The notes below the pieces were generated by a model. The model was not told the DNA's origin. It did no database searches and worked only from the letters and a program-made list of their open reading frames with translations. Position numbers and translations under genes: made by a program. This document shows positions 2,346 to 28,278 of a stretch of 43,137 nt of DNA, piece after piece. Source of the DNA: Salinisphaera japonica YTM-1 (GTDB lineage: Bacteria > Pseudomonadota > Gammaproteobacteria > Nevskiales > Salinisphaeraceae); contig NZ_AYKG01000026.1 in the NCBI RefSeq assembly GCF_003788585.1, positions 1 through 43,137 of the forward strand, written 5' to 3'. Positions within the stretch are counted from its first letter, which is position 1. Each line of letters opens with the position of its first letter.

Positions 2346-2424
2346 CCCGGCGTCTACGTCGATCGTCGTCTGTGAAACAGCGCTGTTATCGGCTTGAATA
2401 AGGCAGTAACGAACAGGAGTTGTC

Positions 2425-13127: not shown

Positions 13128-13900
13128 GATCCAGACTCCATACATTGGAAATACGATGGCATCTATATCGAGGCGAGTCGTATCGTATACAACCGCTGAT
13201 TGACGCATCGGGGTGAACGCCAGCCCGCGAAGCGCGCGCCCAGCTGTCAGAGCAGGCAAATGAACGCACGAAAACGACCGGCTTGTTTCACATGCAACAC
13301 CTGTGGATAAAACTGTGGGGAAATCACAAGCCCGGGCGCTCCGTCGACGTATCTCCCGGCGGCCAAACCGCAATCGTCACCAACGCGCACGGACATCAAA
13401 ACAACCCAACTGTGTCGCGCATGTCTCACCGGGCACACCGCCAATGGCTTTCACACGCGCGCCGAGAGCGTACGGACAACCCGCACGAAGCGCCGCACAT
13501 GCCGTATGCGCTCAATACGCCCCAACTTGATCAATAAATCGAAGTAATTTGTTATAAATCAAATGCTTACGTAAATATCAAACCTGAGTCGATCGACCAA
13601 GGTCGTACCCGATTAAAACAGCGCGTAAAAACAACCCGCGGATTGCATGCTGCCTTGCCATCGCTACATCAAGGCAACGACAAGGCCCAAACGTACCGTG
13701 CGCGCCGGGCAAGCACATCACCGACAGTCACACCGCGCGGCACGGTAACGGCACGCCAAAACAGGCTTGGCCAGGCCAGATGAGCCTGTCGATAAGTATC
13801 AACGATCTGTGGACAAGTCCGTGCATAAAAGCCGATCGCCGGCACCTCGCCAGACGTGGCATCCTCTCAAGCGCCAAGAACACCACCATCGATACCGCCC
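13128..13900. other. Long non-coding region with DnaA-box-like words and an AT-rich core
   Basis: About 770 bases without a supported gene. It holds a perfect DnaA-box word TGTGGATAA (13302-13310), the near match TGTGGGGAA just after it, and TGTGGACAA (13808-13816). An AT-rich island runs from about 13531 to 13620, in strong contrast to the surrounding DNA. A perfect 7-bp inverted repeat TGCCTTG/CAAGGCA lies at 13651-13676. Short frames on both strands have no family resemblance. It separates core genes on the left from the defence block on the right. Confidence 0.45.
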
Positions 13901-14059
13901 ATGAATGCCCTCTGGATCATCTTCGCCATCGCAGTGGTTATCGTCGCGGTCTGGGGCTTCTATGTCTGGTACCAGAACCGCCGCGCCCGCGAGTCGTTCA
14001 AGGATATCGACTACAGCAAGCTCAACGATCTTGATGAAGACGGGTGGGACGACAAGTAA
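13901..14059 (+). CDS. Small single-span membrane protein
   Basis: A 52-residue protein: NALWIIFAIAVVIVAVWGFYVWY forms one membrane span from about residue 2 to 24, followed by a basic NRRAR patch and an acidic tail KLNDLDEDGWDDK. The positive patch after the span predicts a cytoplasmic C-terminus. The frame is open 15 codons upstream but the hydrophobic start argues for the ATG at 13901. It ends 11 bases from the convergent end of the res gene. Function unknown; its link to the defence block is only positional. Confidence 0.6.
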   Translation: MNALWIIFAIAVVIVAVWGFYVWYQNRRARESFKDIDYSKLNDLDEDGWDDK

Positions 14060-14070
14060 TCTCGCCGGCG

Positions 14071-17000
14071 TCAGTCAGTGAAGGCGTCCATGAAGCTTTC
14101 AAAGCGATCGTCAACACGGAAGGCGACGTTTTCATCGAGCGCGCTTAGGTGCGCCTTGCCGCATTCGATCTTGGCTTTCTCGACCGGGCGGAGTGCGTCG
14201 GTAAACAGGCTGCCCTTGGTTTCGACGACGAAATAGAGTCTCTCGACGCTTGCAGTTTCGACGACGACCGCCCAGTCCGGGTTGTACGACCCAAGGGGCG
14301 TATCGATCTGGAACCATGGCGGCAGCTTCGCGTAGAGCTTTATTTCCTTATTGCGCTCGAAGGCACGGGCGAAGTCCCGCTCGACCTCAGAGTCGTAAAT
14401 CACATAGTCGTAGACCGACTTCTCGGCCTCGAGCATATTGCTCGATAAATAACCGGCAAGTGGCGCTATGTCCTTGTCGTTGAAGTCGAACAACTCTTGG
14501 GCATAGAAGCTGTCGTCGCCGATGCGGTGGTACTGGATGCCGTCGACGATGAACAGGCGCATTTGATTGCGGATGATCTGTAACGTCTGTTCGATGAACT
14601 TCTGCGGGTTGTTCCTGAAATCATCGAGCCGGCCGCTGTCTACGAGAATGCGGGCCAGCGTACGGCGGGTGAGATTCGTCTCGTTCTGCAGAAAGCTCAG
14701 GATGTCGGGCAGGGCAAAGTCGCGCCGGTCATAGGTCGCCGGTGTTTCGTTAACTTCGGTCGCCTCGACGCCGCCGCGGTTCACGTCCAGGCGCGCGGTG
14801 CGCGTGATGAACTTGGCCTTGCCCACCCGCAGCTGATCGCGCATCTCCGTCGCGCAGCATTCGATGAGCTTCTCAACATCAAAATCCACGCGGTAAGTGG
14901 TCTTGTACTTGATCCGGTTCCAGAGCGCCTCGAACGCCGGGCTCAGGTAGACGGCCTTGTTGAGCTTGACCTCGTGCCGGTCGTCTCGATTCTGGATATT
15001 CAAGCGACCGGCCACCTTGCGCAGCACGGCAGTGATGGCGCCCGCGTGTTCGGCGGTTTCGTCAGGCAGGGACACCGTGTTGGCCTTGAGATTGGCCCGG
15101 AGTGCGTCCTGCACCTTGCCCTTGGCATCGATATAGTCGTGTTCCAGCAGATGCTGCCAGACCGTCTCGGACAGTTCGGTGCCGAAATATCCCGGCTCAC
15201 CGTTGTCATCGGTGATCGGAATGCTGGCGAACAGATGCTTCTCTACCACGCCGAAGCGGATGCCTTCGTCCTGCTCGATCTCTTTCTGTAGCTGGCGCGC
15301 GAAATCCTCGTAGGATTCGTTGGCCATTACCGTCAGGCGGTTCACCTCGAAACCGTGCACACGCTGGCCGCTCTGGTTTACCGCCAGCCGCAGCCCGCGG
15401 CCGATCTCCTGGCGTTTTTTCATCACCGAGGCAGTCTCGTTGAGCGTGCAGATCTGGAACACGTTCGGGTTGTCCCAGCCTTCGCGCAGCGCGGAGTGGG
15501 AGAAGATGAACTTGAGCCGGGATTCGAAGCTCAGCAGCCGTTCCTTGTCCTGCATGATCAGCTGATAGGCGCTCTCGTCGGCCTGTGTCTTGCCTTCGCC
15601 TTTCGAATCCTTCAGGCGTACGTTGCCGCGCGCGTCTTTCTTCTTGTCGGCGGCGAAGTAGCCGTTATGGACAGCGTGTGCCTCGGTCTCGATATCCACT
15701 TCGCCGAAAAGCGACTGATACTTCGGCAGCCGGGCGGCGCGGATATACTCTTCCTCGAACATACGCGCGTACTTGCCGGGCTGCGGCTCGCCGTCGGTGT
15801 TGTAGTTGCGGTAATTGGCCACGCGATCGATGAAGAACAGGCTCAAGACCTTGATGCCCATCGGCGTGAGCTGAAGCTCCTTGTCCAGGTGCTCTTCGAT
15901 GGTCTTGCGGATCTGCAGCCGCTTGTATTCGTCTTCATCCACCTGGCCGATCACCTCGCCGCGGCGGATGACCTCTGGCTTGCTGGTGAAGCTGATGTAC
16001 TCGTTGTCTGGCTCGCAGTAGATGTCGTCGACGATATAGCCGTCGTAGACCGTCCGGCCGCCGGTGGTGTCCAACAGATCCTCGCCGCTTCGCACCCATT
16101 TCTTCTTGCGCTTGACCAGGCCTTTCTGCAGCGTGTCGAGCTCCACCTGCGCGCGGATCGGGCTGTTGCGGTTATCGGTCTGGAGCAGCTTGATGTACGC
16201 CTTGTTATGGCTGTCGCGCACCTCGACGCCCGTCACCTCGATCTGTTTGACGAGCTTGCGTTCGTAGGCGTCGATGGAATCGAGCCGGTACACCATGTGG
16301 TGTTTGTCGAGATGGGTGGCGGAGTAGCGCAGCGTGCACAGCGGGTTGAGCTGGGCGATCGCCTCGCGGCTTTTCTCGGTATTCGCCACGCTCTGGGGCT
16401 CGTCGATGATCACGACCGGGTGCGTGGCCTGAATGAACTCGATGGGCTTGTTGCCCGTCATCCGGTCGTGTGGGCGATGGATGATATTGGCCTTGTCGGC
16501 CTTGTCCGGATCATCGAAGCTTTTACGAAACGCATCGATATTGATCACCATGATCTGAATGGTGTCGCTGGTCGCGAAATTGCGAACTTGCCCGAGTTTT
16601 TGCGAGTCGTAGACGAAGTAATCGAACGGCGTGTTGTCGTACAGTCCCTTGAAGTGCGGCTCTGTCATCTGGAGCGATTTGTACACGCCCTCTTTGATCG
16701 CCACCGACGGCACCACGATGGTGAACTTGGTGAAGCCATAACGCTGGTTCAGCTCGAACAGCGTGCGCAGATACACATAGGTCTTGCCGGTACCCGTCTC
16801 CATTTCGACCGTGAAATCACGCGAGGCCAGCTCGCTGGCCGGGGCCAGGCCGTTGCGCAGCTGAATGGCTTGCAGGTTGTCGAGCAGATCTTCGTCCAGC
16901 AGGCGCAGCCGGTTGCCCACACCCAGATCGCCGCTGGACTGGCCCAGGCTCAAACCCATCTGCGGCTCGTTTTTCAGCGGCGCGACGGTGAAATTCGTAC

Positions 17001-17088
17001 TGCAGATCTCCTGGCCTTCGAACAGATCGGCGACGGCGTCGATGGCCTCGCGCTGATAGTCGAGCTCAGCGTCGAACTGAAACTTCAT
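14071..17088 (-). CDS. res: Type III restriction-like helicase-nuclease (Res)
   Basis: 1005 residues, in the size range of type III restriction subunits. The N-terminal superfamily 2 helicase has Walker A ETGTGKT (97-103), the DEPQ box (229-232, the type III Res form of DEAD) and a motif III-like YSATH. The C-terminus has the nuclease motif of the PD-(D/E)xK fold: NPDW with D938, then YFVVETKG with E956 and K958. It would translocate or switch on DNA and cut when the partner Mod finds unmodified sites. It is the last gene of the five-gene operon; its ATG overlaps the end of rhuM by 4 bases, indicating translational coupling. All key residues appear intact. Confidence 0.92.
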   Translation of the reverse strand: MKFQFDAELDYQREAIDAVADLFEGQEICSTNFTVAPLKNEPQMGLSLGQSSGDLGVGNRLRLLDEDLLDNLQAIQLRNGLAPASELASRDFTVEMETGTGKTYVYLRTLFELNQRYGFTKFTIVVPSVAIKEGVYKSLQMTEPHFKGLYDNTPFDYFVYDSQKLGQVRNFATSDTIQIMVINIDAFRKSFDDPDKADKANIIHRPHDRMTGNKPIEFIQATHPVVIIDEPQSVANTEKSREAIAQLNPLCTLRYSATHLDKHHMVYRLDSIDAYERKLVKQIEVTGVEVRDSHNKAYIKLLQTDNRNSPIRAQVELDTLQKGLVKRKKKWVRSGEDLLDTTGGRTVYDGYIVDDIYCEPDNEYISFTSKPEVIRRGEVIGQVDEDEYKRLQIRKTIEEHLDKELQLTPMGIKVLSLFFIDRVANYRNYNTDGEPQPGKYARMFEEEYIRAARLPKYQSLFGEVDIETEAHAVHNGYFAADKKKDARGNVRLKDSKGEGKTQADESAYQLIMQDKERLLSFESRLKFIFSHSALREGWDNPNVFQICTLNETASVMKKRQEIGRGLRLAVNQSGQRVHGFEVNRLTVMANESYEDFARQLQKEIEQDEGIRFGVVEKHLFASIPITDDNGEPGYFGTELSETVWQHLLEHDYIDAKGKVQDALRANLKANTVSLPDETAEHAGAITAVLRKVAGRLNIQNRDDRHEVKLNKAVYLSPAFEALWNRIKYKTTYRVDFDVEKLIECCATEMRDQLRVGKAKFITRTARLDVNRGGVEATEVNETPATYDRRDFALPDILSFLQNETNLTRRTLARILVDSGRLDDFRNNPQKFIEQTLQIIRNQMRLFIVDGIQYHRIGDDSFYAQELFDFNDKDIAPLAGYLSSNMLEAEKSVYDYVIYDSEVERDFARAFERNKEIKLYAKLPPWFQIDTPLGSYNPDWAVVVETASVERLYFVVETKGSLFTDALRPVEKAKIECGKAHLSALDENVAFRVDDRFESFMDAFTD

Positions 17089-18170
17089 CCCTGGTTATCC
17101 CCGTTGTCGTCGTCGCGCTGCGGCGCCTGGCGCGCGATGTCTTCGAGCGCGCGTAGCGTATCCGCCTCGCCCTCGGCCTCCTTGAGCGCGCGCCGACGTG
17201 CATCGAATTGCCGGTACTCGCCCTTGGCCTTGTCGTCGGCCGAGCGTTTGCGCATACGGCCATAGCCATCAAGCACCGGCCAGTCGTTGAACGCCAGAAA
17301 CTGGTCGAGCTTGTCCTGCCAGTTCTGCATGAATATCTGCTGGCGGCGGCGGGCCTGGTTATCGGCGAAATCGAGCCACATCACCACCATGCGGTTCAGG
17401 TCATCGATCTCGCCGGCGCTCAGGTAGTTCTTGGCGACCGTGACATCTCGTGAACGCACGGTGTCGCCCTCCCAATTCGTGAGCCCCATATTGGCCTGCC
17501 TGTGATCGGCGCGCTGGCTGATCAACTCGGCTGCCGTATGCCCCGTGGCCGCGTAATGCAGCTTGTTCTGGATATGCTGGAAGAATCGCGTGGTTTCGGC
17601 ATCGCTCGTATCGTAGTCTGCGGCCAGCGTGAAAATCTCCTTCACCCGCAGATACATCCGCCGCTCGCTGGCGCGAATATCGCGGATGCGTTCCAGCAGC
17701 TCGTCGAAATAGTCGGGCACGCCGGGGCCGGGCGGGTTCTTCAGGCGCTCGTCGTCCATGACGAAGCCCTTGACTAGATATTCCCGCAGCCGCTCGGTGG
17801 CCCAGCGGCGGAACTGTGTGCCGCGCTGGCTACGCACGCGGTAGCCGATAGCAATAATGGCGTCGAGGCTGTAATGCCGCACGCGGTAGCGTTTCCCGTC
17901 GCGGGCAGTTGTAAAGAAATGCTTTACAACTGCCGCGGCGTCGAGCTCCTGTTCCTGGAACAGGTTGCGCAGGTGCATGCCGATGTTCTGCTTGCTCGTC
18001 TGGTACAGCTCGGCCAGCAACGTCTGGCTGAGCCAGATCGAGTCCTCTTCAAATCGGCATTCGATACGCGTAGCCCCGTCTTCGGTCTGGTAGACCAGAA
18101 TTTCACCGCGGGCCGAGGCGAGTTCCTCGTCGCTCGTTTCTGCTGCATCATTGCGTTCATCGTGGGTCAT
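17085..18170 (-). CDS. RhuM-family protein within the R-M operon
   Basis: 361 residues matching the RhuM family (named after a Salmonella pathogenicity-island gene): IECRFEEDSIWLSQTLLAELYQTSKQNIGMHLRNLF, then KRYRVRHYSLDAIIAIGYRVRSQRGTQFRRWATERLREY. The first part looks like a small DNA-binding module and the middle is helical, with many Arg and Glu. The biochemical role of the family is not established; members are frequent in mobile islands and beside restriction genes. Here it lies 22 bases after mod and overlaps res by 4 bases, so it is made together with the restriction enzyme and may regulate or accompany it. No nuclease motif was recognised. Confidence 0.82.
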   Translation of the reverse strand: MTHDERNDAAETSDEELASARGEILVYQTEDGATRIECRFEEDSIWLSQTLLAELYQTSKQNIGMHLRNLFQEQELDAAAVVKHFFTTARDGKRYRVRHYSLDAIIAIGYRVRSQRGTQFRRWATERLREYLVKGFVMDDERLKNPPGPGVPDYFDELLERIRDIRASERRMYLRVKEIFTLAADYDTSDAETTRFFQHIQNKLHYAATGHTAAELISQRADHRQANMGLTNWEGDTVRSRDVTVAKNYLSAGEIDDLNRMVVMWLDFADNQARRRQQIFMQNWQDKLDQFLAFNDWPVLDGYGRMRKRSADDKAKGEYRQFDARRRALKEAEGEADTLRALEDIARQAPQRDDDNGDNQG

Positions 18171-18192
18171 AACGTCGACGTCCCGGCGGTGC

Positions 18193-20133
18193 TCAAAGAC
18201 TCTTCACGTCTTCAACGCTGGCCTGGCGAAGAATCTGCACGGCGTTGGTCTTGACCACGTCGTCGGCAAAGCCGTTGTCCTTGAACACCACGCGCATGAC
18301 TTCCGGGGCAAGCTCGGCCTTGAGTGCGGCGATGCCGTTGACGAGATTGAGATCGACCGCATCGGCCAAGCAAACGACGAGGGCGCCGGCGCCGATGATA
18401 TGCACGGTTTTGCCGTTGATCTCACGCGCTTCGATTGGCACGGCCAGATCAAGACCGTATTTCAGCAATAGCTCGCTTAGAACATCGGCCTCGCTGCGGT
18501 CGTGACGGATGTTGTCTACATTGTCGAATAGCGACGTTTTAATATCATCATCGCTTGGTACCCAAGGAACGATGTTGCTGTCACTAAGCTTGAAAACTTT
18601 GAAGCCACACTGGTTCACGCCCAATGAATTTAAAGCCTGCTTAATACGCTCTTTACCAATCTGAGCGATGTTGTCAAACCCAGATTTAGCAGCTATTGTG
18701 TCGCTGCTACAAGGCTCCGGAAGCTGACACATAATAAATCGCCGCGCACCCTCATCCTGCGCGTTGGCTTTCAACACCGCATGCGCTGTAGTGCTAGAGC
18801 CTGAAAAAAAGTCCAAGACGATAAAGTCATTACCCGCCACCATCGCGATTAGGTATTTCAATAACTCCGATGGTTTAGGGTAATCATCGAAAGGCACTCC
18901 AATTTCTTCTAGCTCAGCAGTTGCTTTTTGAGACCCTCCTAGCCCAGAAATTACCGATATAACATGACTTGGGTTGTCAGATCGCTTTTTGACCGCCTCA
19001 ATCGCTCCAGATTGACTTATTTCAAACGATGTAAGTTGTCCTTTAGCGTCGGTAATCGCATTGCATCTATTGTCTATAAATTGCTCTAGAAGGTCTCGAG
19101 AACTCCATCCGCTCGAAACTGATACGCTTTTAAATAGTTTTCCGTTGGCTATTTTTGCGTCGGACGCATATTGTGGCCACCCCGATTTTTCGCAGCGAAT
19201 TGATCCTGAGCTGAATGCAGCTGGGAATCCTTCGGGCAGTGTAATGGATGAAACTGGATTTTTAGGCCCGTTTTTAACAATGGTGTTTCTTATTTCTTCT
19301 CGGAATATTTTGCTGTTTCTTGGAACGCTTGGATCTACTACCGGGGGTAGTGGGAAATTACTTTCATATTTTGCATATAAAAGTATGTATTCATGACACC
19401 GTTTAATACGTGCTTGATTGTCGAAGTTGCCATCTGTTTTCCAGGTAAACTGAGTGATAAAGTTCTCAGGTCCAAAAACCTCATCCATAATCTGCCGAAG
19501 GTTCTGCACTTCGTGATCGTCAATCGAGACGAAGATCACGCCGTCGTCCTTCAGTAGGTTCCGCGCGAGCCGAAGGCGCGGATACATCATGTTCAGCCAG
19601 TTGGTGTGATACCGGCCGGCAGATTCCGAGTTGGAGGATGTTTTAAAACCGTTGCCGTCCACTTGGCCGGTATAACGCAGGTAGGTATCCAGATTGTCCT
19701 GAAACCGGTCCGGATAGATGAAATCGCCGCCGGTGTTATAGGGCGGGTCGATATAAATCATCTTCACCTGTTTGTGATACGACTTCTGCAGGAGCTTGAG
19801 CACCTCCAGGTTGTCGCCTTCGATGAACAGGTTCTGTGTGGACTCCCAGTTGACGGATTCTTCCGGGCAGGGGCGTAGCGTGCCGGTGGACGGCGTCTGG
19901 GCGATGCGGCGGGCGCGGTCCTTGCCGTTCCAGGTAAAGCTGTAGCGCTCGCGCTCGTCTTCCACGTACTCGCCAAGACAGGCCTTGAGCGCGTCGAAGT
20001 CCACTTTCCAGCGCGGGCCGTCGGCGTCCGAGCCTTCGGTGAACGCGTCCGGGAAGAGCTCGCGGAGCTTGTCGATATTGTCGGCGACGATGTCTTGCGA
20101 AGTGCCGTCGGTTTTGGGGTCCAGCTTGTCCAT
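18193..20133 (-). CDS. mod: Type III-like DNA adenine methyltransferase (Mod)
   Basis: 646 residues, the length of a beta-class N6-adenine methyltransferase of type III systems. The catalytic motif DPPY is at 129-132 (MIYIDPPYNTGG) and the AdoMet-binding motif DFFSGSSTTA at 441-450; the order DPPY before FxGxG defines the beta class. The segment between them (about 220-430) is the expected target recognition domain. DNA from about 18530 to 19500, covering that domain and beyond, is far more AT-rich than the gene ends, which suggests a recombined specificity region. Mod would methylate one strand of its site and give sequence recognition to Res. It follows the DUF4391 gene by 18 bases. Confidence 0.92.
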   Translation of the reverse strand: MDKLDPKTDGTSQDIVADNIDKLRELFPDAFTEGSDADGPRWKVDFDALKACLGEYVEDERERYSFTWNGKDRARRIAQTPSTGTLRPCPEESVNWESTQNLFIEGDNLEVLKLLQKSYHKQVKMIYIDPPYNTGGDFIYPDRFQDNLDTYLRYTGQVDGNGFKTSSNSESAGRYHTNWLNMMYPRLRLARNLLKDDGVIFVSIDDHEVQNLRQIMDEVFGPENFITQFTWKTDGNFDNQARIKRCHEYILLYAKYESNFPLPPVVDPSVPRNSKIFREEIRNTIVKNGPKNPVSSITLPEGFPAAFSSGSIRCEKSGWPQYASDAKIANGKLFKSVSVSSGWSSRDLLEQFIDNRCNAITDAKGQLTSFEISQSGAIEAVKKRSDNPSHVISVISGLGGSQKATAELEEIGVPFDDYPKPSELLKYLIAMVAGNDFIVLDFFSGSSTTAHAVLKANAQDEGARRFIMCQLPEPCSSDTIAAKSGFDNIAQIGKERIKQALNSLGVNQCGFKVFKLSDSNIVPWVPSDDDIKTSLFDNVDNIRHDRSEADVLSELLLKYGLDLAVPIEAREINGKTVHIIGAGALVVCLADAVDLNLVNGIAALKAELAPEVMRVVFKDNGFADDVVKTNAVQILRQASVEDVKSL

Positions 20134-20151
20134 GGCGTGTCTTGTTGGGCG

Positions 20152-20904
20152 TTACAGGGCGGCGGCGGTGTCGCGTAGCGTCGCCTGCAGCTCCTTGATA
20201 CGTGTATTGAGCTCCACCTGTCGGTTGAAGCGGGTCTCTTTCTTGATCGCGGCGCGCAGCCGCGCGATGTCGTGTTCGAGCTGGTGGCATTCGGCCAGCC
20301 GCTCGCGTTGCGCGCTGCGTGTGTTGTGTTCTGTCGGTAGATGAAACCGGCCGCTCAGTCGGGCGCAGGCGAGCGCGATCAGGCGCTGGTGCCAGGCGGC
20401 GTAGAGCGCATAAAAGTCGGTCTGCGGCAGTTCGTCAAGCGCCAGGCTGGCGACAAACGCCTGTTCGACGTCGGTGGGCGTGTCCGAGTCGATCCAGCGC
20501 GTGGTGCGGATGTCTTTGGCCACCGTCACGCCGGCTTCGGCTCGGCTGGCGCGTTTGTCCGCGGTGCTTAACGCCCATTGGGCATCGTAGGTCAGTACCA
20601 GCAGCAGCGGATACGGGATGGCGCGGTGAATCCGTTCGGCCAATCGCGCGGCGTGCTTTGTGCTCTTGAGCGTGGCGTGTACGACGGCGAGTTCGCCGTA
20701 ATCGCGCTCGTCGTCGCGGTAGGCGTTGACGTTGATCGTGCTGGGTTTGAGCGTGTATTGCCAGGTGACGGTATCGACGTCCTCGGTAAAAGCGCGGCGA
20801 TCGGCGGCCGACAAGTCGGCGTTGTCCAGAAACAGCTTCTTGTAGACGCGTTTGCCCAGCCAGGCGGCGTCGGGCAGTCCGAGCGGGGCGTAGTCGAATG
20901 CCAT
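20152..20904 (-). CDS. DUF4391 domain protein
   Basis: A 250-residue protein with the DUF4391 pattern: start FDYAPLGLPDAAWLGKRVYKKLF, a middle TVTWQYTLKPSTINVNAYRD, then LLLVLTYDAQWALS and a predicted coiled coil at the C-terminus (about 205-245, rich in Arg, Glu, Leu). DUF4391 proteins have no defined activity; to my knowledge they occur with helicases and type III-like methyltransferases in bacterial defence loci. Its start codon overlaps the helicase stop by one base and it is followed 18 bases later by mod, so it is probably a structural partner of the helicase or Mod. No catalytic motif is visible. Confidence 0.8.
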   Translation of the reverse strand: MAFDYAPLGLPDAAWLGKRVYKKLFLDNADLSAADRRAFTEDVDTVTWQYTLKPSTINVNAYRDDERDYGELAVVHATLKSTKHAARLAERIHRAIPYPLLLVLTYDAQWALSTADKRASRAEAGVTVAKDIRTTRWIDSDTPTDVEQAFVASLALDELPQTDFYALYAAWHQRLIALACARLSGRFHLPTEHNTRSAQRERLAECHQLEHDIARLRAAIKKETRFNRQVELNTRIKELQATLRDTAAAL

Positions 20905-23900
20905 CAGGCGGCTTTCGATTCGCTTTGGACAATGAGATACGCGACGACTTCGAAATCGTCGATGCCCTGAAACGTATCGCGGCTGATTACCGTGCCGCCG
21001 GGCTGGAACAGGCTAGCTACGCCTTGTTCTTCGGCTTTGCCCGTAATGGCGGTGACCGCTCGCGCCAGCTGCTCGCGGTAGCGCGCCATCTCCCAACCGT
21101 GATTCGTGGCCTCGTTAAAACGGGCGACGGCGGCGCGGTCGGGCCGCCCACGGCCGAGCGATAGGCGCTTCAGCGCATCGAGTATGGGCCGCACATGGGT
21201 AAAGTTGCGCCGCACACTGCCGTCATCGCCCACGTAGACAAGATAGTGCGGTGCCAGCGCATAGGCCGGGTCGCCCTGGACACGCGCATTCATGTTGCGC
21301 AGGCAAAAGATCACGCCGGGGGCCAGGCCTTCGTCGGCGATGAGGTCGTCGATGGCGGTGACCGCATAGGCGCCAAGCGGCATCTGGGCGAGCGTATCGC
21401 CGTGCTCTTTTAAGTATTCGCCCAGGTCCATCCGATAGTCGTTGAGCGTGAGATCGGTGATCGAGATGCCGTCGGACAAATCTTCGATCGTCGGTACGTC
21501 GTGCTGTAGCTGGTGCATCTGCCGGCGGCGGTATTCGAGATCGTTCATCACGTCGCCTTCAGCGGTTTCGATGACGTTTTCTTCGCCGGTGGCCGAGATG
21601 TCGAGCAGCACCATGCGCCCGGCCACGCGTGCTTCGAGATCGATGTATTCGTCCAGCTCGATGTTCGGCCAGAAGTTCACGAGCTGGATGACAGCGTTGG
21701 TCGAGCCCAGCCGGTCGATGCGGCCGAAACGCTGGATGATGCGCACCGGGTTCCAGTGGATGTCGTAGTTCACCAACAGGTCGCAGTCCTGCAGGTTCTG
21801 GCCTTCGGAAATACAGTCGGTGGCGATGAGGATATCGATGGCGCCGTCATTCGGATTGCCACCGCGCTCCTTGGAGACCGGCGAGAAGGCAGCCAGGATC
21901 GACGGAATATCGCGTCGCAAGCCGGGGACTGTGCTGCGGTTGCCGCTCGACTGGCCGGTGACTTTGCCGACGTGCAGGCCGAGCTCGCTCTGCGCCCAAT
22001 CCGCGATCTGGGTGTAGAGATATTCCGCTGTGTCAGCAAAGGCCGTGAAAACGAGCGCTTTATGGTTGCCGGCGTTGATCGGGTTGCTGGCTTTATCCGC
22101 AATCAACGCGCGCAGGGCGGCGAGTTTGGCGTCGCGGGCGGGGCCGATGTCTCGTGCTTCACGTACGAGTTTCACCAGCAGCGCTTCGTCTTCTTCCAAC
22201 TCCTGGCGCCAGCGGATGCGGTCCACGTCGCGAATCAGCACTTTGATCTTGTTGCCGACCAGGTAGGGATCAAACGCGTTGTCTTCGACGGCGATGTCCT
22301 CGATGCCCCATTCCTCGATTTCGGAGGCGTCGTGGTTGTCGAGGCGATCTTTGAGTTCGCGTACGCCCTCCAACAACTTGTTCACGGTCAGCGCGAAGGC
22401 GTGGATCGAGCTCTCCATGCGCTTGAGCAGGTTCACGCGCATGAGATGGATCAGGCTTTCCTCGCGGTCGATCTGCTTGAAAACCGAGCCGCTGGCCATC
22501 GTCATGTCGTACTTGCGGCTGTATTCGCCCAGTTTTTCGGCCAGCACGTATTTCAGCGGCGCGTAGGCGCTCAAGTTCAGGCGCCGGATATCGCGATTGA
22601 TTTCGCGCAGCTCGGGGAACTGGTTTTCGCTGTCGATGGCGGGGTAGAGATTGTGGGGCGAGAGACGGCGCGGGAAGCTGCCGATCTCGCTCATGTCGTA
22701 GTATTTTTCGACGTGTTTGCGCGAGCGCGCGATGGTCAGGCGATCGAGCAGGCTGAAGTAGTCGAAGTTGAGCGCGTCCAGCAGGCCGGTGGACGTGCGT
22801 TGGTCTTCGTCTTCCCGCAGCCAGGCGTTGAAGCGTTTTTGCGCACCGCGCAGCGTTGCGTCGATGCTGGCCACGCCTTCGTTGTATAGCGCATCGTCGC
22901 GGCCTTCGGTGATGAAGGCGATCTGGTTCTTCAGATCGTTCATGCGGTTATTGACCGGCGTGGCCGACAGCATGAGCACCTTGGTTTTCACGCCGGCGCG
23001 AATGATGTCGCGCATGAGCCGGCCGTAACGTGTGAGCCCATCCTTGCGGGGCGGGTTGTTGCGGAAGTTGTGCGACTCGTCGATGACGATGAGGTCGTAA
23101 TTGCCCCAGTTGACCGTCTCGAGGTTGATTTCACCGGAATATCCGCCTTCGCGCGTCAGATCCGTGTGGTTGAGCACGTCGAAGTTGAAGCGGTCATCGG
23201 CGAGCAGATTGCGCGTGTCGTTGACGGTATAGAGGGTCCAGTTCTCGCGCAGCTTCTTGGGTGCGAGCACAAGTACGCGGTCGTTGCGCAGCTCGTAATA
23301 CTTGATCACCGCCAGCGCTTCGAATGTTTTGCCCAAGCCCACGCTGTCCGCCAGGATGCAGCCGTTGAAGCGCTCGATCTTGTCGATCGCGCCGAGCACG
23401 CCGTCGCGCTGGAAGCGATAGAGCTTGTTCCAGACGATTGTGTCTTTAATGCCCGTACGGCTTTTGATGATGTTTTCTTCGTCCAGCTCGCCGAGGTAGT
23501 CCTCGAACAGGGCGTGGAGAATACGGAAGTAGATCTGTTCCGGTGATTTATCGCCGTGGATCGTTTCGAGCGCCTGTAACAGCGCGGGCTTCATGTCGGC
23601 TTCTGCACTGGCCTCCGCCCAGATCGCGTTGAAATTATCGGCCAGTTCGGATGCTTGCTCGGGCGTATCGAAAGCCGTATTCATCTCATAATGATCGCCC
23701 GGCAAACGGCCAAGGCCGGTCGCCGTGAACGGCGAGCTTCCGTGTAGCGCGAATCGCGTGTCTGCGGCATTTTCTACGAGGTAAAGGCTGTGCCCTGCAC
23801 GGCGCGGCATGGCGCGTACCGTGACTTTTGCAGAAACCCAGTTGCTGAAATGTTTTGCCAAGGCAGCGGTCGTGAGTTCGTTGCGATAAACGCGCTCGTT

Positions 23901-24122
23901 GTGATCGCCGATCAGGCCGAGAGTTTCGACGAGATGCTTGCTGTCGTCGTTTGGTGTTGGAAGCAAAAGACGGGATTGCGCGGCATCTTGCAACACGTGA
24001 CGCAGCGGCGCGTAGGCAAAGAGCGATACGGTCGCTGTAAGCACGCTCAGGTTGGCTTTGCCCGTTAACCAAGACTCAAGCAGTGCCCCGACCGTGGCCC
24101 CCTTGCGGTTATCAATCAGCAT
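20904..24122 (-). CDS. SNF2-type helicase with degenerate PLD-like N-terminus
   Basis: A 1072-residue superfamily 2 helicase, first gene of the defence operon. Helicase motifs are intact: Walker A ADSVGLGKT (K265), DESH (348-351), SATP (386-389) and motif VI QRFGRIDRLG (797-806). Residues 1-150 resemble the phospholipase-D-like module found in front of such helicases (LSVLTATVSLFAY, then HSLYLVEN and HGSSPFTATGL). The nuclease signature HxK is replaced by H111-S-L113, so that module is probably inactive as a nuclease. The ATG has a strong G-rich ribosome-binding site (GGGAGGGGG) 5 bases upstream, and a 21-base G-run on the coding strand lies 92 bases upstream. It presumably remodels or moves along DNA with the methyltransferase or Res; the exact role is unknown. 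Confidence 0.88.
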   Translation of the reverse strand: MLIDNRKGATVGALLESWLTGKANLSVLTATVSLFAYAPLRHVLQDAAQSRLLLPTPNDDSKHLVETLGLIGDHNERVYRNELTTAALAKHFSNWVSAKVTVRAMPRRAGHSLYLVENAADTRFALHGSSPFTATGLGRLPGDHYEMNTAFDTPEQASELADNFNAIWAEASAEADMKPALLQALETIHGDKSPEQIYFRILHALFEDYLGELDEENIIKSRTGIKDTIVWNKLYRFQRDGVLGAIDKIERFNGCILADSVGLGKTFEALAVIKYYELRNDRVLVLAPKKLRENWTLYTVNDTRNLLADDRFNFDVLNHTDLTREGGYSGEINLETVNWGNYDLIVIDESHNFRNNPPRKDGLTRYGRLMRDIIRAGVKTKVLMLSATPVNNRMNDLKNQIAFITEGRDDALYNEGVASIDATLRGAQKRFNAWLREDEDQRTSTGLLDALNFDYFSLLDRLTIARSRKHVEKYYDMSEIGSFPRRLSPHNLYPAIDSENQFPELREINRDIRRLNLSAYAPLKYVLAEKLGEYSRKYDMTMASGSVFKQIDREESLIHLMRVNLLKRMESSIHAFALTVNKLLEGVRELKDRLDNHDASEIEEWGIEDIAVEDNAFDPYLVGNKIKVLIRDVDRIRWRQELEEDEALLVKLVREARDIGPARDAKLAALRALIADKASNPINAGNHKALVFTAFADTAEYLYTQIADWAQSELGLHVGKVTGQSSGNRSTVPGLRRDIPSILAAFSPVSKERGGNPNDGAIDILIATDCISEGQNLQDCDLLVNYDIHWNPVRIIQRFGRIDRLGSTNAVIQLVNFWPNIELDEYIDLEARVAGRMVLLDISATGEENVIETAEGDVMNDLEYRRRQMHQLQHDVPTIEDLSDGISITDLTLNDYRMDLGEYLKEHGDTLAQMPLGAYAVTAIDDLIADEGLAPGVIFCLRNMNARVQGDPAYALAPHYLVYVGDDGSVRRNFTHVRPILDALKRLSLGRGRPDRAAVARFNEATNHGWEMARYREQLARAVTAITGKAEEQGVASLFQPGGTVISRDTFQGIDDFEVVAYLIVQSESKAA

Positions 24123-24214
24123 TGTGTCCCCCTCCCCCGAGAGGGGCTGACGCTAGCATGTTGTGTGGCCACCTATGAAGAGAGCAAGCGGTTCAATGCC
24201 GCCGGAGGGCCTTG

Positions 24215-24235
24215 CCCCCCCCCCCCCCCCCCCCC
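24215..24235. repeat. Homopolymer run of 21 C upstream of the defence operon
   Basis: Twenty-one consecutive C on the plus strand (G on the strand of the helicase gene), 92 bases before its start codon. Runs of this length are prone to slippage and are a known cause of on/off switching in bacterial genes. Its place fits the promoter or leader of the operon, not the coding sequence. Such runs are also where sequencing errors gather, so the true length is uncertain. Confidence 0.85.
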
Positions 24236-24242
24236 GCGGCGG

Positions 24243-24343
24243 CAGTCCTCACAAGCTGCGTGGCTTAAAACTGTCCGGTGTTCGTTAACTGAAAGTCAGT
24301 TAGCAGGCCGCAGTTCCTGCAAGCTGCAGGCGTAAAAAAGACG
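24243..24343. repeat. Imperfect direct repeat with short inverted repeats
   Basis: Two similar stretches of about 30 bases, 24243-24275 and 24311-24343, share CAGT(T)CCT-CAAGCTGC and a following TAAAA tract. Between them is a perfect 7-bp inverted repeat TAACTGA/TCAGTTA (24286-24302, 3-base spacer). They lie between the defence operon and the amidase terminator and may mark an insertion boundary or a duplicated terminator. Confidence 0.45.
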
Positions 24344-24367
24344 AGTCCTTCGCGGACTCGTCTTTTT
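24335..24367 (-). terminator. Bidirectional rho-independent terminator after the amidase gene
   Basis: A perfect 14-bp stem: A5-GACGAGTCC (24335-24348) pairs with GGACTCGTC-T5 (24354-24367) around a 5-base loop. A-run and T-run on either side let it work in both directions. It lies 28 bases after the stop codon of the leftward amidase gene and isolates it from the defence operon. Confidence 0.93.
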
Positions 24368-24394
24368 CTTTATGTGCGTGCTTGTGCTCCGTTT

Positions 24395-25816
24395 TTACGC
24401 AAACTCGGCCGGGTTGGGCACGGTGGGGAAGCGTGCGGGATAGGCGTCGAGGTAGGCGTTGGCCGCGCGCAGGACGCGGATGTCGTCGAAGCGGCCGCCG
24501 GCCAGTTGGAAACCCACGGGCAGGCCGGCCCGGGTGAAGCCGCAGGGGATAGAGGCAGCGGGCTGGTTGGAGAGGTTGAAGGGGTAGGAGAACTGGGCCC
24601 ATTCTTCCCAGTCGTGCAGGTCGGAGCCGGGCGGGACTTCCTGGTTGATCTCGAAGGGCGGGATCGGCACGGAGGGGGTCATCAACAGGTGATAATCCTG
24701 GTTGAAGTGCTCGAGCTTGGCGGTGAGATCGGCGCGCTCGGCGTAGGCGCGGAACAGGTCGATGGCGGCCCAGTGTTCGGCCTTGCGGGCGTTGTCGACC
24801 AGGCCGGGGTCGAGCAGTTCTTTCTGGTTGGCGTCGCACTGGGAATAGACTTCCTGCGAGGCGGTGAACCAGAGCCGGCGAAAGATTTCGATCGGTGATT
24901 CGAAGCCGGGGTCGACTTCGACGATTTCCGCCCCCAGGGCTTCCAGGTTGGAAGCGGCTTCCTTGACGCGGGTGGCGATCTCATCGTTGACGTCGGCATA
25001 GCCCAGATCGGGGGAGTAGGCGATACGCAGGCCGGTCAGGTCACAGTTCAGATCCACGCCCCAGTCGTCGGGCTGGCCGTGCAGGGCGTAGGGGTCGTGA
25101 TAGTCATAGCGGCCGATGACGTTGAGCATGCGCGCGGCATCGCGCGGGTGGCGCGTGATCGGGCCGATGCTGGAGAGGGTGGTCATTTTGGCCGGCGGCC
25201 ATTGCGGGGTCCACCCGAAGGTGGGCATGAAGCCGAACACGCCGCAGAAGGCCGAGGGGATACGGATCGAGCCGCCCGAGTCGCCGCCCTGGTGCAACAC
25301 GCCCATGTTGAGCGTGGCCGCGGCGGCCGCACCGCCCGAGGAGCCGCCGGCGGTGAGGCTGGTGTCCCAGGGGTTGGAGGTAGCGCCGAACAGGCGGTTG
25401 TCGGTGACGGCTTTCCAGCCGAACTCGGGCGTATTGGTCTTGCCGAGGATGACGGCACCGGCCTCGCGCAGACGACAGACCGGCGGCGCGTCAAAATCAC
25501 ACAGCTCGTCGGAGGTGGTGGCCGAGCCCTCGCGACAGGGCATGCCGGCGCACGAGGTCAGGTCCTTGAGCGAAACCGGCACGCCGTCGATGGGCGAGAG
25601 CGGCTCGCCGCGGCCCCAGCGCCGGGCCGAGGCCTTGGCCTGTTCTTCGGCGCCGTCGGTATCGACATAAACGAAGGCATTCACACTGTCGTTGAACTTG
25701 TCGATACGCCCCAGCGAGGCGCGGGTGGCTTCCAGCGGCGAGGCATCGCCATTGCGGTAGAGGCCGACGAGATCGCCGGCGTCGAGATTGCCTAGATCGG
25801 TATCTTTTGCGGACAT
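24395..25816 (-). CDS. Amidase-signature family amidase
   Basis: 473 residues from the ATG at 25816; an open extension to 25924 runs into the upstream gene and is discarded. The Ser-cisSer-Lys triad of the amidase signature family is present: K84 in VPVSLKD, S159 in GGSSGGAAAA and S183 in GGDSGGSIRIP. It would hydrolyse a carboxamide to acid and ammonia in the cytoplasm. It is not GatA by context, since no gatB or gatC is adjacent. It lies 46 bases downstream of the aldehyde dehydrogenase on the same strand, so the two may form a catabolic pair. Transcription ends at the strong terminator 24335-24367. Confidence 0.9.
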   Translation of the reverse strand: MSAKDTDLGNLDAGDLVGLYRNGDASPLEATRASLGRIDKFNDSVNAFVYVDTDGAEEQAKASARRWGRGEPLSPIDGVPVSLKDLTSCAGMPCREGSATTSDELCDFDAPPVCRLREAGAVILGKTNTPEFGWKAVTDNRLFGATSNPWDTSLTAGGSSGGAAAAATLNMGVLHQGGDSGGSIRIPSAFCGVFGFMPTFGWTPQWPPAKMTTLSSIGPITRHPRDAARMLNVIGRYDYHDPYALHGQPDDWGVDLNCDLTGLRIAYSPDLGYADVNDEIATRVKEAASNLEALGAEIVEVDPGFESPIEIFRRLWFTASQEVYSQCDANQKELLDPGLVDNARKAEHWAAIDLFRAYAERADLTAKLEHFNQDYHLLMTPSVPIPPFEINQEVPPGSDLHDWEEWAQFSYPFNLSNQPAASIPCGFTRAGLPVGFQLAGGRFDDIRVLRAANAYLDAYPARFPTVPNPAEFA

Positions 25817-25862
25817 GCAGATCTGCTCTTGGTGGTGCGGCACGTGCGGCCGGCTGCCGTAT

Positions 25863-27308
25863 TCAGCGGTGGGCGTTGCCGATGCAGTAGTACTTGGTTT
25901 CCAGATATTCCTCGATGCCGACATGCGCGCCCTCGCGGCCGAGGCCGGATTGCTTCACGCCGCCAAACGGCACGTGCGGGCCGGTGATATCCATGGTGTT
26001 GATGCCGACCATGCCGAAATCCAGCCCGCGCAGGAACGTGCGGATACGGGCATCGTCGTGGGTGTAGATATAGCTGGCCAGGCCATAGATGGTGTCGTTG
26101 GCCGCGGCGATCGCATCGGCGTCGTCATCGAAGGCAGCGATGGCGGCCACGGGGCCGAACGATTCTTCGGTGGCGATACGCATCTCGTGCGTGAAGCCGG
26201 CGATGGCCTGGGGCATGAAGAACTGCGGCCCCGGGGCCTGGCTCTGGTCGCGCCCGTGGATGACGGCACCGTGATCACGGGCATCGTCGACCAGCGATTG
26301 CATGTCGGCCACTGCATCCGTATGGATCAACGGGCCGATCTCGTTGTTTTCATCCAGGCCGTAGCCGACGGGCATGGCGTCCATGCGGGCAACGAAGCGA
26401 TCCACGAATGCGTCATAGATCGAGCGGTGCACGAAGATACGATTGGCCGCGACACAATCCTGGCCGGAGGTCTGGAACTTGGCGGCGACGGCGGCCTCGA
26501 CCGCCACATCGATATCAACATCCTCGCAGACGATGAAGGGCGCGTTGCCGCCCAGCTCCATCGAGGTGGCCTTGACCGTGTCGGCGGCCTGGGCCAACAG
26601 GCTGCGCCCGACGTGGGTCGAGCCGGTGAACGACAGCGCGCGCACGCGATCATCGGCGCAGACGGTATCGGCGAATTGCCGGCCGGCGCCGGTGACCACG
26701 TTGAACACACCGGTCGGCATGCCCGCATCGTCGGCCAGGCGCGCCAGCGCCAGGGCGCAGAACGGCGTTTGTGAGGCTGGTTTGACGATGGCCGTGCAGC
26801 CGGCGGCAATGGCGGCCCCCACCTTGCGGGTGATCATCGCCAGCGGAAAGTTCCAGGGCGTGATGATGGCGGCCACGCCCATCGGTTCGCGCAGGGTGCC
26901 GATGGCCATGGTCGGGTCTTCCGGCGGGATGGTGGCGCCGTAGGTACGCCGGGCCTCTTCGGCAAACCAGCGCAGGAAGCTGGCCGCGTAATCGACCTCG
27001 CCGCGGGCCTCGGCGATCGGCTTGCCCTGCTCGCGGGTCATCAGGCGTGCCAGATCTTCGCGATTGGCCTGCATGCCTTGATACCAGGCCAGCAGGATGT
27101 CGGCACGCTCACCCACCGCGGCGTGGCGCCAGTCGGTAAACGCCGTGGCGGCCGCGTCGATGGCCTGTTGCATGCGCGTGGCATCCGCATCAGGCACATG
27201 GCCCAGCGATTCCTCGTTGCCCGGGTCGATCACGTTGATACGTGCGGCCGGGCTGTCGGCAGGCTGCCATTGTCCGTCGATGAAGGTCTGGTCGGTCCAG
27301 AGCGACAT
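25863..27308 (-). CDS. NAD(P)-dependent aldehyde dehydrogenase, succinate-semialdehyde type
   Basis: 481 residues from the ATG at 27308; an upstream GTG at 27332 adds 8 residues and neither start has a clear ribosome-binding site. Motifs of the GabD-like branch are complete: IITPWNFPLAM (cofactor), SFTGSTHVGR, the general base E251 in MELGGNAP and the nucleophile C285 in SGQDCVAANR, ending PFGGVKQSGLGREG. GabD enzymes oxidise succinate semialdehyde to succinate, and related ones use glutarate semialdehyde or other aldehydes. No aminotransferase is adjacent. Probably co-transcribed with the amidase downstream. Confidence 0.9.
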   Translation of the reverse strand: MSLWTDQTFIDGQWQPADSPAARINVIDPGNEESLGHVPDADATRMQQAIDAAATAFTDWRHAAVGERADILLAWYQGMQANREDLARLMTREQGKPIAEARGEVDYAASFLRWFAEEARRTYGATIPPEDPTMAIGTLREPMGVAAIITPWNFPLAMITRKVGAAIAAGCTAIVKPASQTPFCALALARLADDAGMPTGVFNVVTGAGRQFADTVCADDRVRALSFTGSTHVGRSLLAQAADTVKATSMELGGNAPFIVCEDVDIDVAVEAAVAAKFQTSGQDCVAANRIFVHRSIYDAFVDRFVARMDAMPVGYGLDENNEIGPLIHTDAVADMQSLVDDARDHGAVIHGRDQSQAPGPQFFMPQAIAGFTHEMRIATEESFGPVAAIAAFDDDADAIAAANDTIYGLASYIYTHDDARIRTFLRGLDFGMVGINTMDITGPHVPFGGVKQSGLGREGAHVGIEEYLETKYYCIGNAHR

Positions 27309-27340
27309 GTCGGCACCGGTTGTCCAATTCACGCCCGCGA

Positions 27341-27383
27341 CGGTAACAGCCCGCGGCGTGCAACTTTATCCGGACTGTTACCG
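27341..27383. promoter_or_regulatory. Inverted repeat between hslO and the aldehyde dehydrogenase
   Basis: A perfect 9-bp inverted repeat, CGGTAACAG (27341-27349) and CTGTTACCG (27375-27383), with a 25-base spacer, lies just upstream of the dehydrogenase start and directly after the hslO stop. It could be an operator or a leader hairpin of the dehydrogenase-amidase unit. There is no T-run to suggest a terminator. Confidence 0.4.
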
Positions 27384-27384
27384 A

Positions 27385-28278
27385 TCAATGCACCGTGGGC
27401 GGCTCGGCGTCGGGGTTGTCGATCAGGGCTTCGACGTCGGCCGGGGTGAAGACATAGGTGGTGTTGCAGAAATGACACTGGGTCTCGATCTGGCCCTGCT
27501 CCTCGAGCACGCTGCGCAGCTCGTCGGCGCCCAGCTGGTGCAGCGCTGCGCCAAAGCGCTCGCGCGAGCAGGTACACGAGAACATCAGCGGTGCCGGGTC
27601 GAACAGCCGCGTGTTTTCTTCGTGGAACAGACGATACAGCACGTCACCGGCGCCAAGCCCCGTCAGCTCGTGATCGGTCAGCGTATCGGCCAGGTGGTTG
27701 ATGCGCTCCCAGGCATCGGTGTCCTCGGCCTCGACCGCCTTGGGCAGTTTCTGCAGCAGCAGGCCGGCGGCGTTGTCGTCGTCCGCGGCCAGCCACAGCC
27801 GTGTCGGCAACTGTTCGGACTGGTTGAAATAGGTTTCCACGCAGGCGGCCAGGGAGTCGCCCTCGAGCGGCACGATGCCTTGGTAGCGCTTGCCCTCCCG
27901 AGGGTCCAGCGTGATCACCACGCGGCCGTTGCCGAACAGTTCTTCCAGCGAATGCCCGGCCAGCTCGGCCCAGGCGGCCTCGTCGAAGCGGGCGATGGCC
28001 CGTAGCTGCTGGGCGCGCTCGTGGTTGCCGGGGTTGGACTCGGCCATCAACAAGCTCAGCGCGCCCGAGCCGCGCACCTCCATCGAGAGCGTGCCGTCGA
28101 GCTTGACCGTGGCCGTGAGCAGGGCACAGGCCGCCAACAGCTCGCCCAGCAGCCGTTGAATCGGCTCGGGATACGTGTTGTTGGCCAGCACCTCTTGATA
28201 GGTGGTGTTCAGCTGGGCGATCTCGCCGCGTACGGCGGTGCCGTCAAAGAGAAAGCGTTGAAGTTGATCGGTGGCCAT
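27385..28278 (-). CDS. hslO: Redox-regulated chaperone Hsp33
   Basis: 297 residues, normal length for Hsp33, a cytoplasmic holdase that is switched on by oxidation. The N-terminal domain starts [17 protein letters not shown] and includes a [12 protein letters not shown] stretch. The C-terminal zinc-binding redox switch has its four cysteines in CTC ([10 protein letters not shown]) and CHFC. The order and spacing are as in the family. It is on the same strand as the flanking genes, 71 bases downstream of the short-chain dehydrogenase. Confidence 0.97.

Follow-up and report, generated by a model that had tools for sequence, protein, structure and literature searches.

A probable extended type III restriction operon in Salinisphaera japonica with a PLD-SNF2 helicase, a DUF4391 protein and a RhuM passenger

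Type III restriction-modification (R-M) systems are exemplified by EcoP15I and EcoPI, and the classical Mod-Res complex does its long-range work by sliding. Splitting at simple repeats is known for phase-variable type III Mods. The SauUSI and NgoAVII enzymes are built from a PLD domain and a helicase-type motor, DISARM class 1 comprises DrmD, DrmMI and DrmABC, and RapA is a remodeller. In Type-2 BREX-related systems, an HKD domain is fused to a Swi2/Snf2 helicase and accompanied by an N6-methylase, and the HKD endoDNase is described as the effector (PMC12839542). A guard inside an R-M operon has a known precedent in PrrC of EcoprrI (PMC12707154, PMC3710099). The occurrence of RhuM, a proposed toxin domain, in R-M neighbourhoods was noted in 2013 (PMC3710099).

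We analysed a stretch of 43,137 nucleotides from S. japonica YTM-1, referred to here as the window. It carries a block of five leftward genes (Table 1), coding for a helicase (HEL), a DUF4391 protein, Mod, RhuM and Res. As the original prediction had it, and in agreement with the ORF coordinates, HEL and the DUF4391 gene overlap by 1 bp, 18 bp separate the DUF4391 gene from Mod, 22 bp separate Mod from RhuM, and RhuM and Res overlap by 4 bp. This spacing suggests co-transcription of the five genes. Pfam assigned SNF2-rel_dom and Helicase_C to HEL, PF14335 (249.7 bits) to the DUF4391 protein, N6_N4_Mtase PF01555 to Mod, Virulence_RhuM PF13310 (364.6 bits) to RhuM, and ResIII with RE_endonuc PF19778 to Res. 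The PADLOC matches were 'HKD+Snf2' C3a139 (406 bits) for HEL, MTase_III (648 bits) for Mod, PDC-S05 (517 bits) for RhuM and REase_III (1151 bits) for Res; PADLOC has no DUF4391 model. The block forms a discrete ~10.3 kb insertion, as the sequences matching window positions 13900-14058 and 24395-27555 lie only 80 bp apart at the empty site of a same-genus genome. The ten flanking ORFs tested were metabolic or housekeeping according to Pfam and gave no PADLOC match. Neither Rfam nor tRNA searches gave a match in the window, and a promoter scan of the operon region gave sites not above the number in shuffles.

Table 1. Features of the operon and its borders in the window
Feature	Position	Strand	Remarks
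HEL	24122-20904	-	1072 aa; core gene
DUF4391 gene	20904-20152	-	250 aa; core gene
Mod	20133-18193	-	646 aa; core gene
RhuM	18170-17085	-	361 aa; facultative passenger, Mod-Res slot
Res	17088-14071	-	1005 aa; core gene
Inserted cassette extent	14060..24394	.	site empty in G407 (L183), a genome of the same genus
Terminator-like palindrome	24335..24367	.	14-pair stem + T run; lies between operon and adjacent amidase gene
21-nt poly-C (poly-G on operon strand)	24215..24235	.	93-113 nt upstream of HEL start; candidate slippage tract

Sequence comparison identified Mod as an EcoP15I-like adenine-type methyltransferase and Res as an EcoP15I-like ATPase-nuclease. The PDB relatives of Mod were 6k0w_B, also a Mod (204 bits), and the EcoP15I Mod 4zcf_A (191 bits). 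Its motifs DPPY (129) and DFFSG (441) follow the beta-class order, with DPPY before F-x-G; among Mods of at least 550 aa, DPPY was present in 90/90 and DFF.G in 88/90. Res matched EcoP15I Res 4zcf_C with 217.7 bits and contains all five motifs (ETGTGKT 97, DEP 229, SAT 256, GRGLR 563, PD..ETK 937), the counts for these patterns being 81 to 84 of the 84 Res proteins of at least 850 aa. The motifs and PF19778 describe an SF2 helicase with a C-terminal PD-(D/E)xK nuclease. The system shares with type III R-M the homology of both subunits to EcoP15I, all tested motifs and a variable Mod centre. It differs in carrying DUF4391 and a PLD-SNF2 motor ahead of Mod, in the room for cargo that separates Mod from Res, and in its Res clade, which stands apart from L246-L249, Mod-Res pairs without HEL and DUF4391 that we read as the EcoP15I-like ones. 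The variable centre was seen in five E. coli cassettes, the window's own Mod lying outside that comparison. Their HEL proteins are 99-100% and their DUF4391 proteins 92-100% identical, and Res is 100% identical in the four compared, whereas Mod identity is 66-73%; invariant columns make up 50-90% of positions 1-200, 0-7% of 241-520 and 60-100% beyond 520. The central region of Mod has, on this comparison, been swapped between otherwise near-identical cassettes; since it differs while HEL and Res hardly do, Mod would be the subunit that sets specificity. In a few relatives, Mod was broken at a simple repeat.

The N-terminus of HEL (~residues 1-170) is a PLD-fold domain and the remainder an SNF2/RapA-like helicase, with RapA as its best PDB sequence relative. 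The PLD fold was recognised with AF2 and Foldseek (SauUSI 7clg, E 1.4e-7; also NgoAVII R 4rct and BfiI 2c1l). The ATPase motifs are Walker A GLGKT (262), DESH (348), SATP (386) and QRFGR (797); across loci SATP was kept in 111/115 and the other three in 115/115. Judging from the alignment, the PLD nuclease motif is lost, as HxK occurred in the PLD stretch of one of 70 aligned proteins, off the expected column. With its ATPase motifs kept and its nuclease motif lost, HEL looks like a motor, which favours remodelling or translocation; a second nuclease is disfavoured by the absence of HxK. Like SauUSI and NgoAVII, HEL couples an N-terminal PLD fold to a helicase-type motor, but it lacks the HxK nuclease motif, and Res is expected to cut. 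An SNF2 helicase and an adenine methylase are also common to DISARM class 1, but HEL reached 156.4 bits where the DrmD cut-off is 610. The DrmA model matched HEL weakly (84 bits), and DrmB and DrmC were absent from the five genes (best 25 of up to 42 PADLOC rows) and from the ten flanking ORFs. PglZ and BrxC of BREX were found neither among the matches listed for the five proteins nor in those ORFs. The Type-2 BREX-related systems (PMC12839542) share the HKD-helicase fusion and the methylase with this locus, which differs from them by the lost nuclease motif and by its type III Res.

The predicted structure of the DUF4391 protein (AF2 mean pLDDT 96.7) has an alpha/beta head and a C-terminal helical hairpin. 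Foldseek against PDB and BFVD returned nothing at E<=0.001, and no solved relative was found by sequence (best PDB match E 0.03). Nothing is concluded from CorA, which made up most of the top PDB Foldseek rows, and a PD-(D/E)xK fold, raised by the strand order, was not supported. In the literature searched, DUF4391 was met as a word in a table of one paper, and no assigned function was found, as the original prediction had also stated.

The order HEL-DUF4391-Mod-Res was found in 90 complete loci, so the arrangement in the window is not chance. Four near-duplicates (L072, L080, L140, L147) were left out of the counts, and other close pairs (e.g. L115, L133) were retained. A scan of 84,980 species found HEL relatives encoded in at least 591 stretches, the remote ones of which may be other SNF2 helicases, and the best 80 were taken as HEL loci. 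Where at least 9 kb lay downstream of HEL, DUF4391 and Mod were present in 51/51 loci and Res in 50/51. Loci probed with DUF4391 had HEL upstream in 19/19 cases from genomes and 17/17 from viral contigs. The HEL and DUF4391 genes overlap or abut in 64/90 complete loci, and the gap between them holds cargo in 5/90. Pairwise distances in 77 loci were correlated (HEL-DUF4391 r=0.90, HEL-Res r=0.91; shuffles <=0.13), as expected from linked inheritance with or without physical contact. By gene content, the conserved unit is HEL, DUF4391, Mod and Res, four genes and not five, and DUF4391 is in practice a marker of it. The locus had been predicted to be more than a classical Mod-Res pair, and helicase and DUF4391 did prove a real addition. 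The expectation that partial versions probably exist was correct but understated, the four-gene version being near-invariant in loci with enough sequence. It is spread over many bacterial phyla, some archaea and plasmids, and includes E. coli; DUF4391 was found in 23/398 sampled genomes of one phylum. Plasmid transfer could help to hold the genes together, but would not on its own account for the same gene order in different phyla.

Joint absence of HEL and DUF4391 occurs at about six points of the Res tree; wherever the sequence suffices to tell, neither gene was found without the other. L204 and L070 were dropped from this tree, L230, L237, L238, L242 and L248 were left stateless because their contigs end too soon, and L241, whose Res has fewer than 850 aa, and L250, whose Res is short and weak, lie outside it; neither of these two shows HEL or DUF4391. 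In L240 and L244, members of the window's Res family, a DrmD-type SNF2 helicase stands upstream of Mod in place of HEL. In L235, a locus of this family without HEL and DUF4391, Mod was found only as a 243-aa piece. Six HEL contigs without DUF4391 were examined. In the short L064, L065 and L069, a gene other than DUF4391 directly follows HEL, and the contig stops too early for DUF4391 to show; these may have cargo in the gap or may be real exceptions. Listeria plasmids seemed to lack DUF4391 next to HEL, but HMM (E 6e-11 to 6e-10) and hhalign (97.5%) comparisons identified the 185-aa 'hypothetical protein' at its position there, and in plasmids of Brochothrix and E. faecalis, as a short form of DUF4391. 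The comparison of loci identifies HEL and DUF4391 as constant parts inherited alongside Mod and Res.

No name for the four-gene set was found in the literature searched, and the database records opened annotate each gene separately and name no system. On sequence grounds the four-gene set is a variant of type III R-M, new as far as that literature goes. RhuM had been predicted as part of a five-gene unit, but it is present in 6/90 complete loci. Its 4 bp overlap with Res and its recurrence at this position in several distinct lineages would fit an integral component, a reading made highly improbable by its absence from 84/90 loci and its presence in R-M loci without HEL and DUF4391. In L200, the top-ranked plasmid relative of RhuM lies between Mod and Res with no HEL or DUF4391 in 7 kb upstream, and in L201 and L203 other relatives lie inside type I operons. 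RhuM as a core gene was rejected on the 6/90 count and L200; its distribution makes it a facultative passenger outside the conserved unit. The Mod-Res slot, which in other loci is occupied by Fic, DarT/macro, Schlafen and further genes, measures at least 300 bp in 38/90 loci; taken over all slots, the inserts include Fic, GmrSD, DarT+Macro, Schlafen/AlbA_2, AAA_13, Bro-N, RVT_1, Abi_C and zeta-toxin. Such a swappable slot explains the presence of RhuM in such operons. Guard or toxin genes also occur within the EcoprrI-PrrC operon and R-M operons with RhuM/Doc/HEPN genes, but PrrC belongs to a type Ic system (PMC3710099), while the present genes sit, by preference between Mod and Res, in a type III core of four genes.

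We consider it rather probable (about 0.6) that the locus is an extended type III R-M system, in which Mod marks self, Mod-Res restricts, HEL and DUF4391 form a motor on the restriction side, and RhuM is a back-up. Methylation by Mod would fall on a single strand at an asymmetric site, and Mod-Res would recognise foreign DNA that lacks the mark. HEL would bind through its nuclease-dead PLD domain and be tethered to Mod-Res by DUF4391, a role that is a guess because no fold match was found. As an ATP-driven motor, HEL could aid Mod-Res communication along DNA or clear proteins, whereupon Res would cut; a separate sensing or remodelling step, as first proposed, is possible. RhuM would be a replaceable back-up, probably an abortive-infection element acting when restriction is blocked. 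DUF4391 gains a context and a testable role, and type III restriction a putative motor. Against this explanation, about six lineages of the window's Res family do without HEL and DUF4391. The same lineages count against a rather unlikely alternative, that HEL and DUF4391 protect the host by restraining or removing Mod-Res on newly replicated, half-marked DNA or by controlling assembly, as they show that Res is tolerated without them, although L235 has no more than a piece of Mod. This alternative is favoured by the motor motifs of HEL without a nuclease motif, by its relationship to RapA and by the one-strand modification of type III systems with its special replication-fork rules (PMC12707154). 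These lineages, together with the action of PLD-SNF2 helicases in other systems (PMC12839542), would agree with an independent defence whose only tie to a classical type III system is the shared operon. We regard that as improbable, since the gene order is fixed with overlapping genes and HEL and DUF4391 were never found apart from Mod in loci that extend 9 kb or more beyond HEL. A plain classical system with roleless hitch-hikers is very improbable: the window Mod and Res do carry all classical motifs tested, but the ATPase motifs of HEL in at least 111/115 loci and the near-perfect linkage across phyla imply selection. Going beyond the extended type III reading, it is doubtful, though conceivable, that the set forms a distinct ATP-dependent R-M class, in which a nuclease-dead PLD-SNF2 motor coupled by DUF4391 replaces Mod-Res sliding and which might escape the two-inverted-sites rule; the cassette would also serve as a docking point for exchangeable back-up effectors and be switched through slippage.

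The poly-G tract upstream of HEL is a candidate slippage element, through which the operon may be switched. It is the sole C/G run of at least 14 in the 3.26 Mb genome. Among 114 HEL loci with upstream sequence, the window alone has such a run (L119 has 13), and this lack of conservation counts against the slippage part of the preferred explanation. A search of E. coli with DUF4391 DNA gave no match, and the L153 cassette, which occupies 3254-12300 of L153 and is carried by the E. coli plasmid pEC21Z137-115K, did match when used as query. As the cassette exists in E. coli, the question of its role can be settled there; the RefSeq label for Res of the E. coli copies is type III endonuclease.

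Iterated profiles of the five proteins were used to scan DUF4391 neighbourhoods together with two further sets of loci. An alignment of the PLD-SNF2 helicase (HEL) was searched against 84,980 species, and the 80 top-ranked among at least 591 relatives were taken as loci; a DUF4391 alignment search yielded 22 viral-contig loci. The five minus-strand ORFs running from 24122 to 14071 in the window were reproduced with the spacing reported in the original prediction, and their gene families were borne out by Pfam, PADLOC and NCBIfam scanning. The proposed five-gene unit had to be narrowed. The conserved unit comprises four genes, HEL, DUF4391, Mod and Res, and RhuM was found in only 6 of 90 complete loci (the window, L030, L040, L074, L105 and L131), always in the Mod-Res slot. 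Complete loci are those with all four genes.

After removal of four near-duplicates, the HEL-anchored set consisted of 78 loci, 51 of them with at least 9 kb downstream. DUF4391 and Mod were present in 51/51 and Res in 50/51; these counts come from the 80 top-ranked HEL relatives out of at least 591, and remote relatives may differ. In the lone exception (L120, Methanobrevibacter), Mod is split and Res was not recognised within 9.3 kb. All four genes were found in every DUF4391-anchored locus that contains HEL together with 9 kb or more of downstream sequence (15/15 from genomes, 12/12 viral). HEL was located upstream of DUF4391 in 19/19 genomic and 17/17 viral loci with at least 3.6 kb of upstream sequence. 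Six HEL contigs without DUF4391 stop 2-1393 bp past HEL, too early to judge whether it follows, and in three (L064, L065 and L069) another ORF comes after HEL. By eye, that of L069 resembles a GmrSD-type gene that L091 and L101 carry between HEL and DUF4391. PF14335 (DUF4391) was detected in 23 of the 398 phylum genomes searched, including the window's own, and in 0 of 14 control genomes.

Coordinates of features in the window and in related loci
Locus	Position	Strand	Feature	Remark
Window	13901-14059	+	52-aa ORF, left flank	ends 11 bp from Res stop; left insertion edge
Window	24215-24235		poly-C/poly-G tract	21 G on operon strand, 93-113 nt before HEL start
Window	from 24395		amidase gene, right flank	other side of the G407 empty site
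L064	5314-6084		ORF directly after HEL	RecB-like nuclease by eye; contig stops before DUF4391 could appear
L069	13309-14628		ORF directly after HEL	GmrSD-like by eye; contig stops before DUF4391 could appear
L116	15982-17719		DarT and macro-domain pair	Mod-Res slot
L240	5612-8461		DrmD-type helicase	657-705 bits (both loci); window's Res family
L244	5068-7998		DrmD-type helicase	657-705 bits (both loci); window's Res family

At least one gap of 300 bp or more was found in 50 of the 90 complete loci; such gaps separate Mod from Res in 38, DUF4391 from Mod in 24, and HEL from DUF4391 in 5. RhuM aside, insert ORFs that are encoded on the operon strand and are 120 aa or longer formed 44 clusters. 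Pfam matches at E<=0.001, a few of them below the curated cut-off, were obtained for 24 of 30 chosen insert ORFs and were absent for the other six. The families include Fic, zeta-toxin, GmrSD, Schlafen/AlbA_2, AAA_13, DarT with Macro, Bro-N, PLDc_2, RVT_1, Abi_C and PD-(D/E)xK, and one of the 30 is an extra methylase-like ORF. Four plasmid loci of RhuM relatives were also inspected. In L200, a relative 65% identical to the window RhuM lies between Mod and Res, and both HEL and DUF4391 are absent from the 7 kb upstream. In L201 and L203 it lies between a type I methylase and the S gene, and in L202 outside annotated R-M operons. From these placements, RhuM is regarded as a general R-M passenger. 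An earlier study describes RhuM and Doc genes as riding in R-M neighbourhoods and proposes RhuM as a possible toxin domain (PMC3710099). L040 carries an extra RhuM piece on the opposite strand, outside the operon. A second RhuM gene (343 aa) is present in the window's genome (L187, G000:C25:11000-17000, at 2420-4045), adjoining two small ORFs that by eye resemble a RelE/ParD-type pair.

Mod and Res match the EcoP15I subunits, and both contain the expected motifs. In five E. coli copies, identity was 99-100% for HEL, 92-100% for DUF4391 and 66-73% for Mod, the centre of which has 0-7% invariant columns. Res was 100% identical in the four copies compared; an IS element interrupts the fifth. In these copies, the target-recognition part of Mod is exchanged while the rest of the cassette is constant; therefore, HEL and DUF4391 would have to serve any specificity. 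The predicted model of the HEL N-terminus (mean pLDDT 88.8) matches SauUSI, NgoAVII R and BfiI in fold, but 69 of 70 proteins have lost the HxK motif, and the one match left does not fall at the expected position. HEL retains its ATPase motifs. The DUF4391 model is confident (mean pLDDT 96.7) and consists of an alpha/beta head and two long C-terminal helices; structure searches with it found no fold relative. Its conserved residues include K22, E71, P97, P99 and Y168, as well as E223, V230 and N233 near the turn joining the last two helices. We read DUF4391 as a putative adaptor.

PADLOC's HKD+Snf2 model (C3a139) fits HEL, which means that at least the helicase had been listed as a candidate before. 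Literature linking SNF2, HKD or phospholipase D to type III restriction was searched, most subscription papers aside, and comprised reviews, a Cronobacter survey and comparative genomics of BREX, Dnd, HEPN and MORC; the parts consulted do not describe the four-gene set. We therefore regard the set as a novel type III R-M variant. In literature of similarly limited access, mention of DUF4391 was confined to a table in one paper, and RhuM together with type III restriction was not found.

The window Res matched 44 of 398 phylum genomes (E<=1e-30), and 17 matching loci outside the earlier sets were fetched. Ten have neither HEL nor DUF4391, with at least 5.5 kb upstream of Mod present, and in five the contig ends too early to tell. 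In the remaining two (L240 and L244), which lack HEL and DUF4391, the gene immediately upstream of Mod encodes a DrmD-type SNF2 helicase. This is a possible second type III and SNF2 arrangement, and it suggests that an SNF2 motor joined Mod-Res more than once. A FastTree Res tree (105 rows) separates the window's family from L246-L249, and within the family the four-gene state prevails. HEL and DUF4391 are jointly missing at about six places (L200; L235; L236; L239; L243; L240 with L244 and L245). Taken as a whole, the tree requires 7 state changes vs a mean of 10.6 in shuffles, in a sample enriched for HEL-bearing loci by design, with low support for some branches and a long L244 branch.

In the window, the operon is an insertion: in G407, a genome of the same genus, only 80 bp separate the left flank (window 13900-14058) from the right flank (from 24395). 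DNA of the left-flank ORF is matched in several same-genus genomes. Ten flanking ORFs tested gave no PADLOC match, and by Pfam they are metabolic or housekeeping. G+C is 49-52% over two kb spanning most of Mod vs ~60-69% in most flanking kb, which fits transfer. The same gene order was found in plasmid annotations from E. coli, Lactococcus, E. faecium, Acinetobacter, Lactiplantibacillus and the archaeon Methanomethylovorans. A short DUF4391, annotated only as hypothetical, forms the second core gene of plasmids from Listeria innocua, Brochothrix and E. faecalis. A tblastn search (E<=1e-5), which short Gram-positive forms probably escape, detected DUF4391 in 49 of 72,556 plasmid and 1 of 50,697 phage records. 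Among 5,426 complete E. coli genomes, 9 contain at least 80% of the cassette and 10 show some match. The L153 cassette is located close to repA on an E. coli plasmid of 115 kb that also bears phage-like replication genes. Three other E. coli plasmids (L251, L253 and L254) have remnants of WYL-domain genes directly upstream of HEL. On an E. faecalis plasmid (L258:5736-15945), an ISL3-family transposase gene splits HEL from the short DUF4391, and predicted aminoglycoside-resistance genes lie a few kb from the cassette.

The 21-nt tract upstream of the operon, the only C/G run of at least 14 in the 3.26-Mb genome, is a possible candidate for phase variation; it was not common to other HEL loci whose upstream sequences were compared. 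In L107 (~15270) and L110 (~16583), from related genomes that share the tract, Mod consists of two overlapping frames split at a nine-G run, and in L120 (~17030) it is split at a (GA)10 run. The junctions of three other split Mods inspected (L070, L075 and L108) showed no repeat of this kind. The splits in L107, L110 and L120 resemble phase-variable type III Mods and suggest that Mod may be switchable in the four-gene system.
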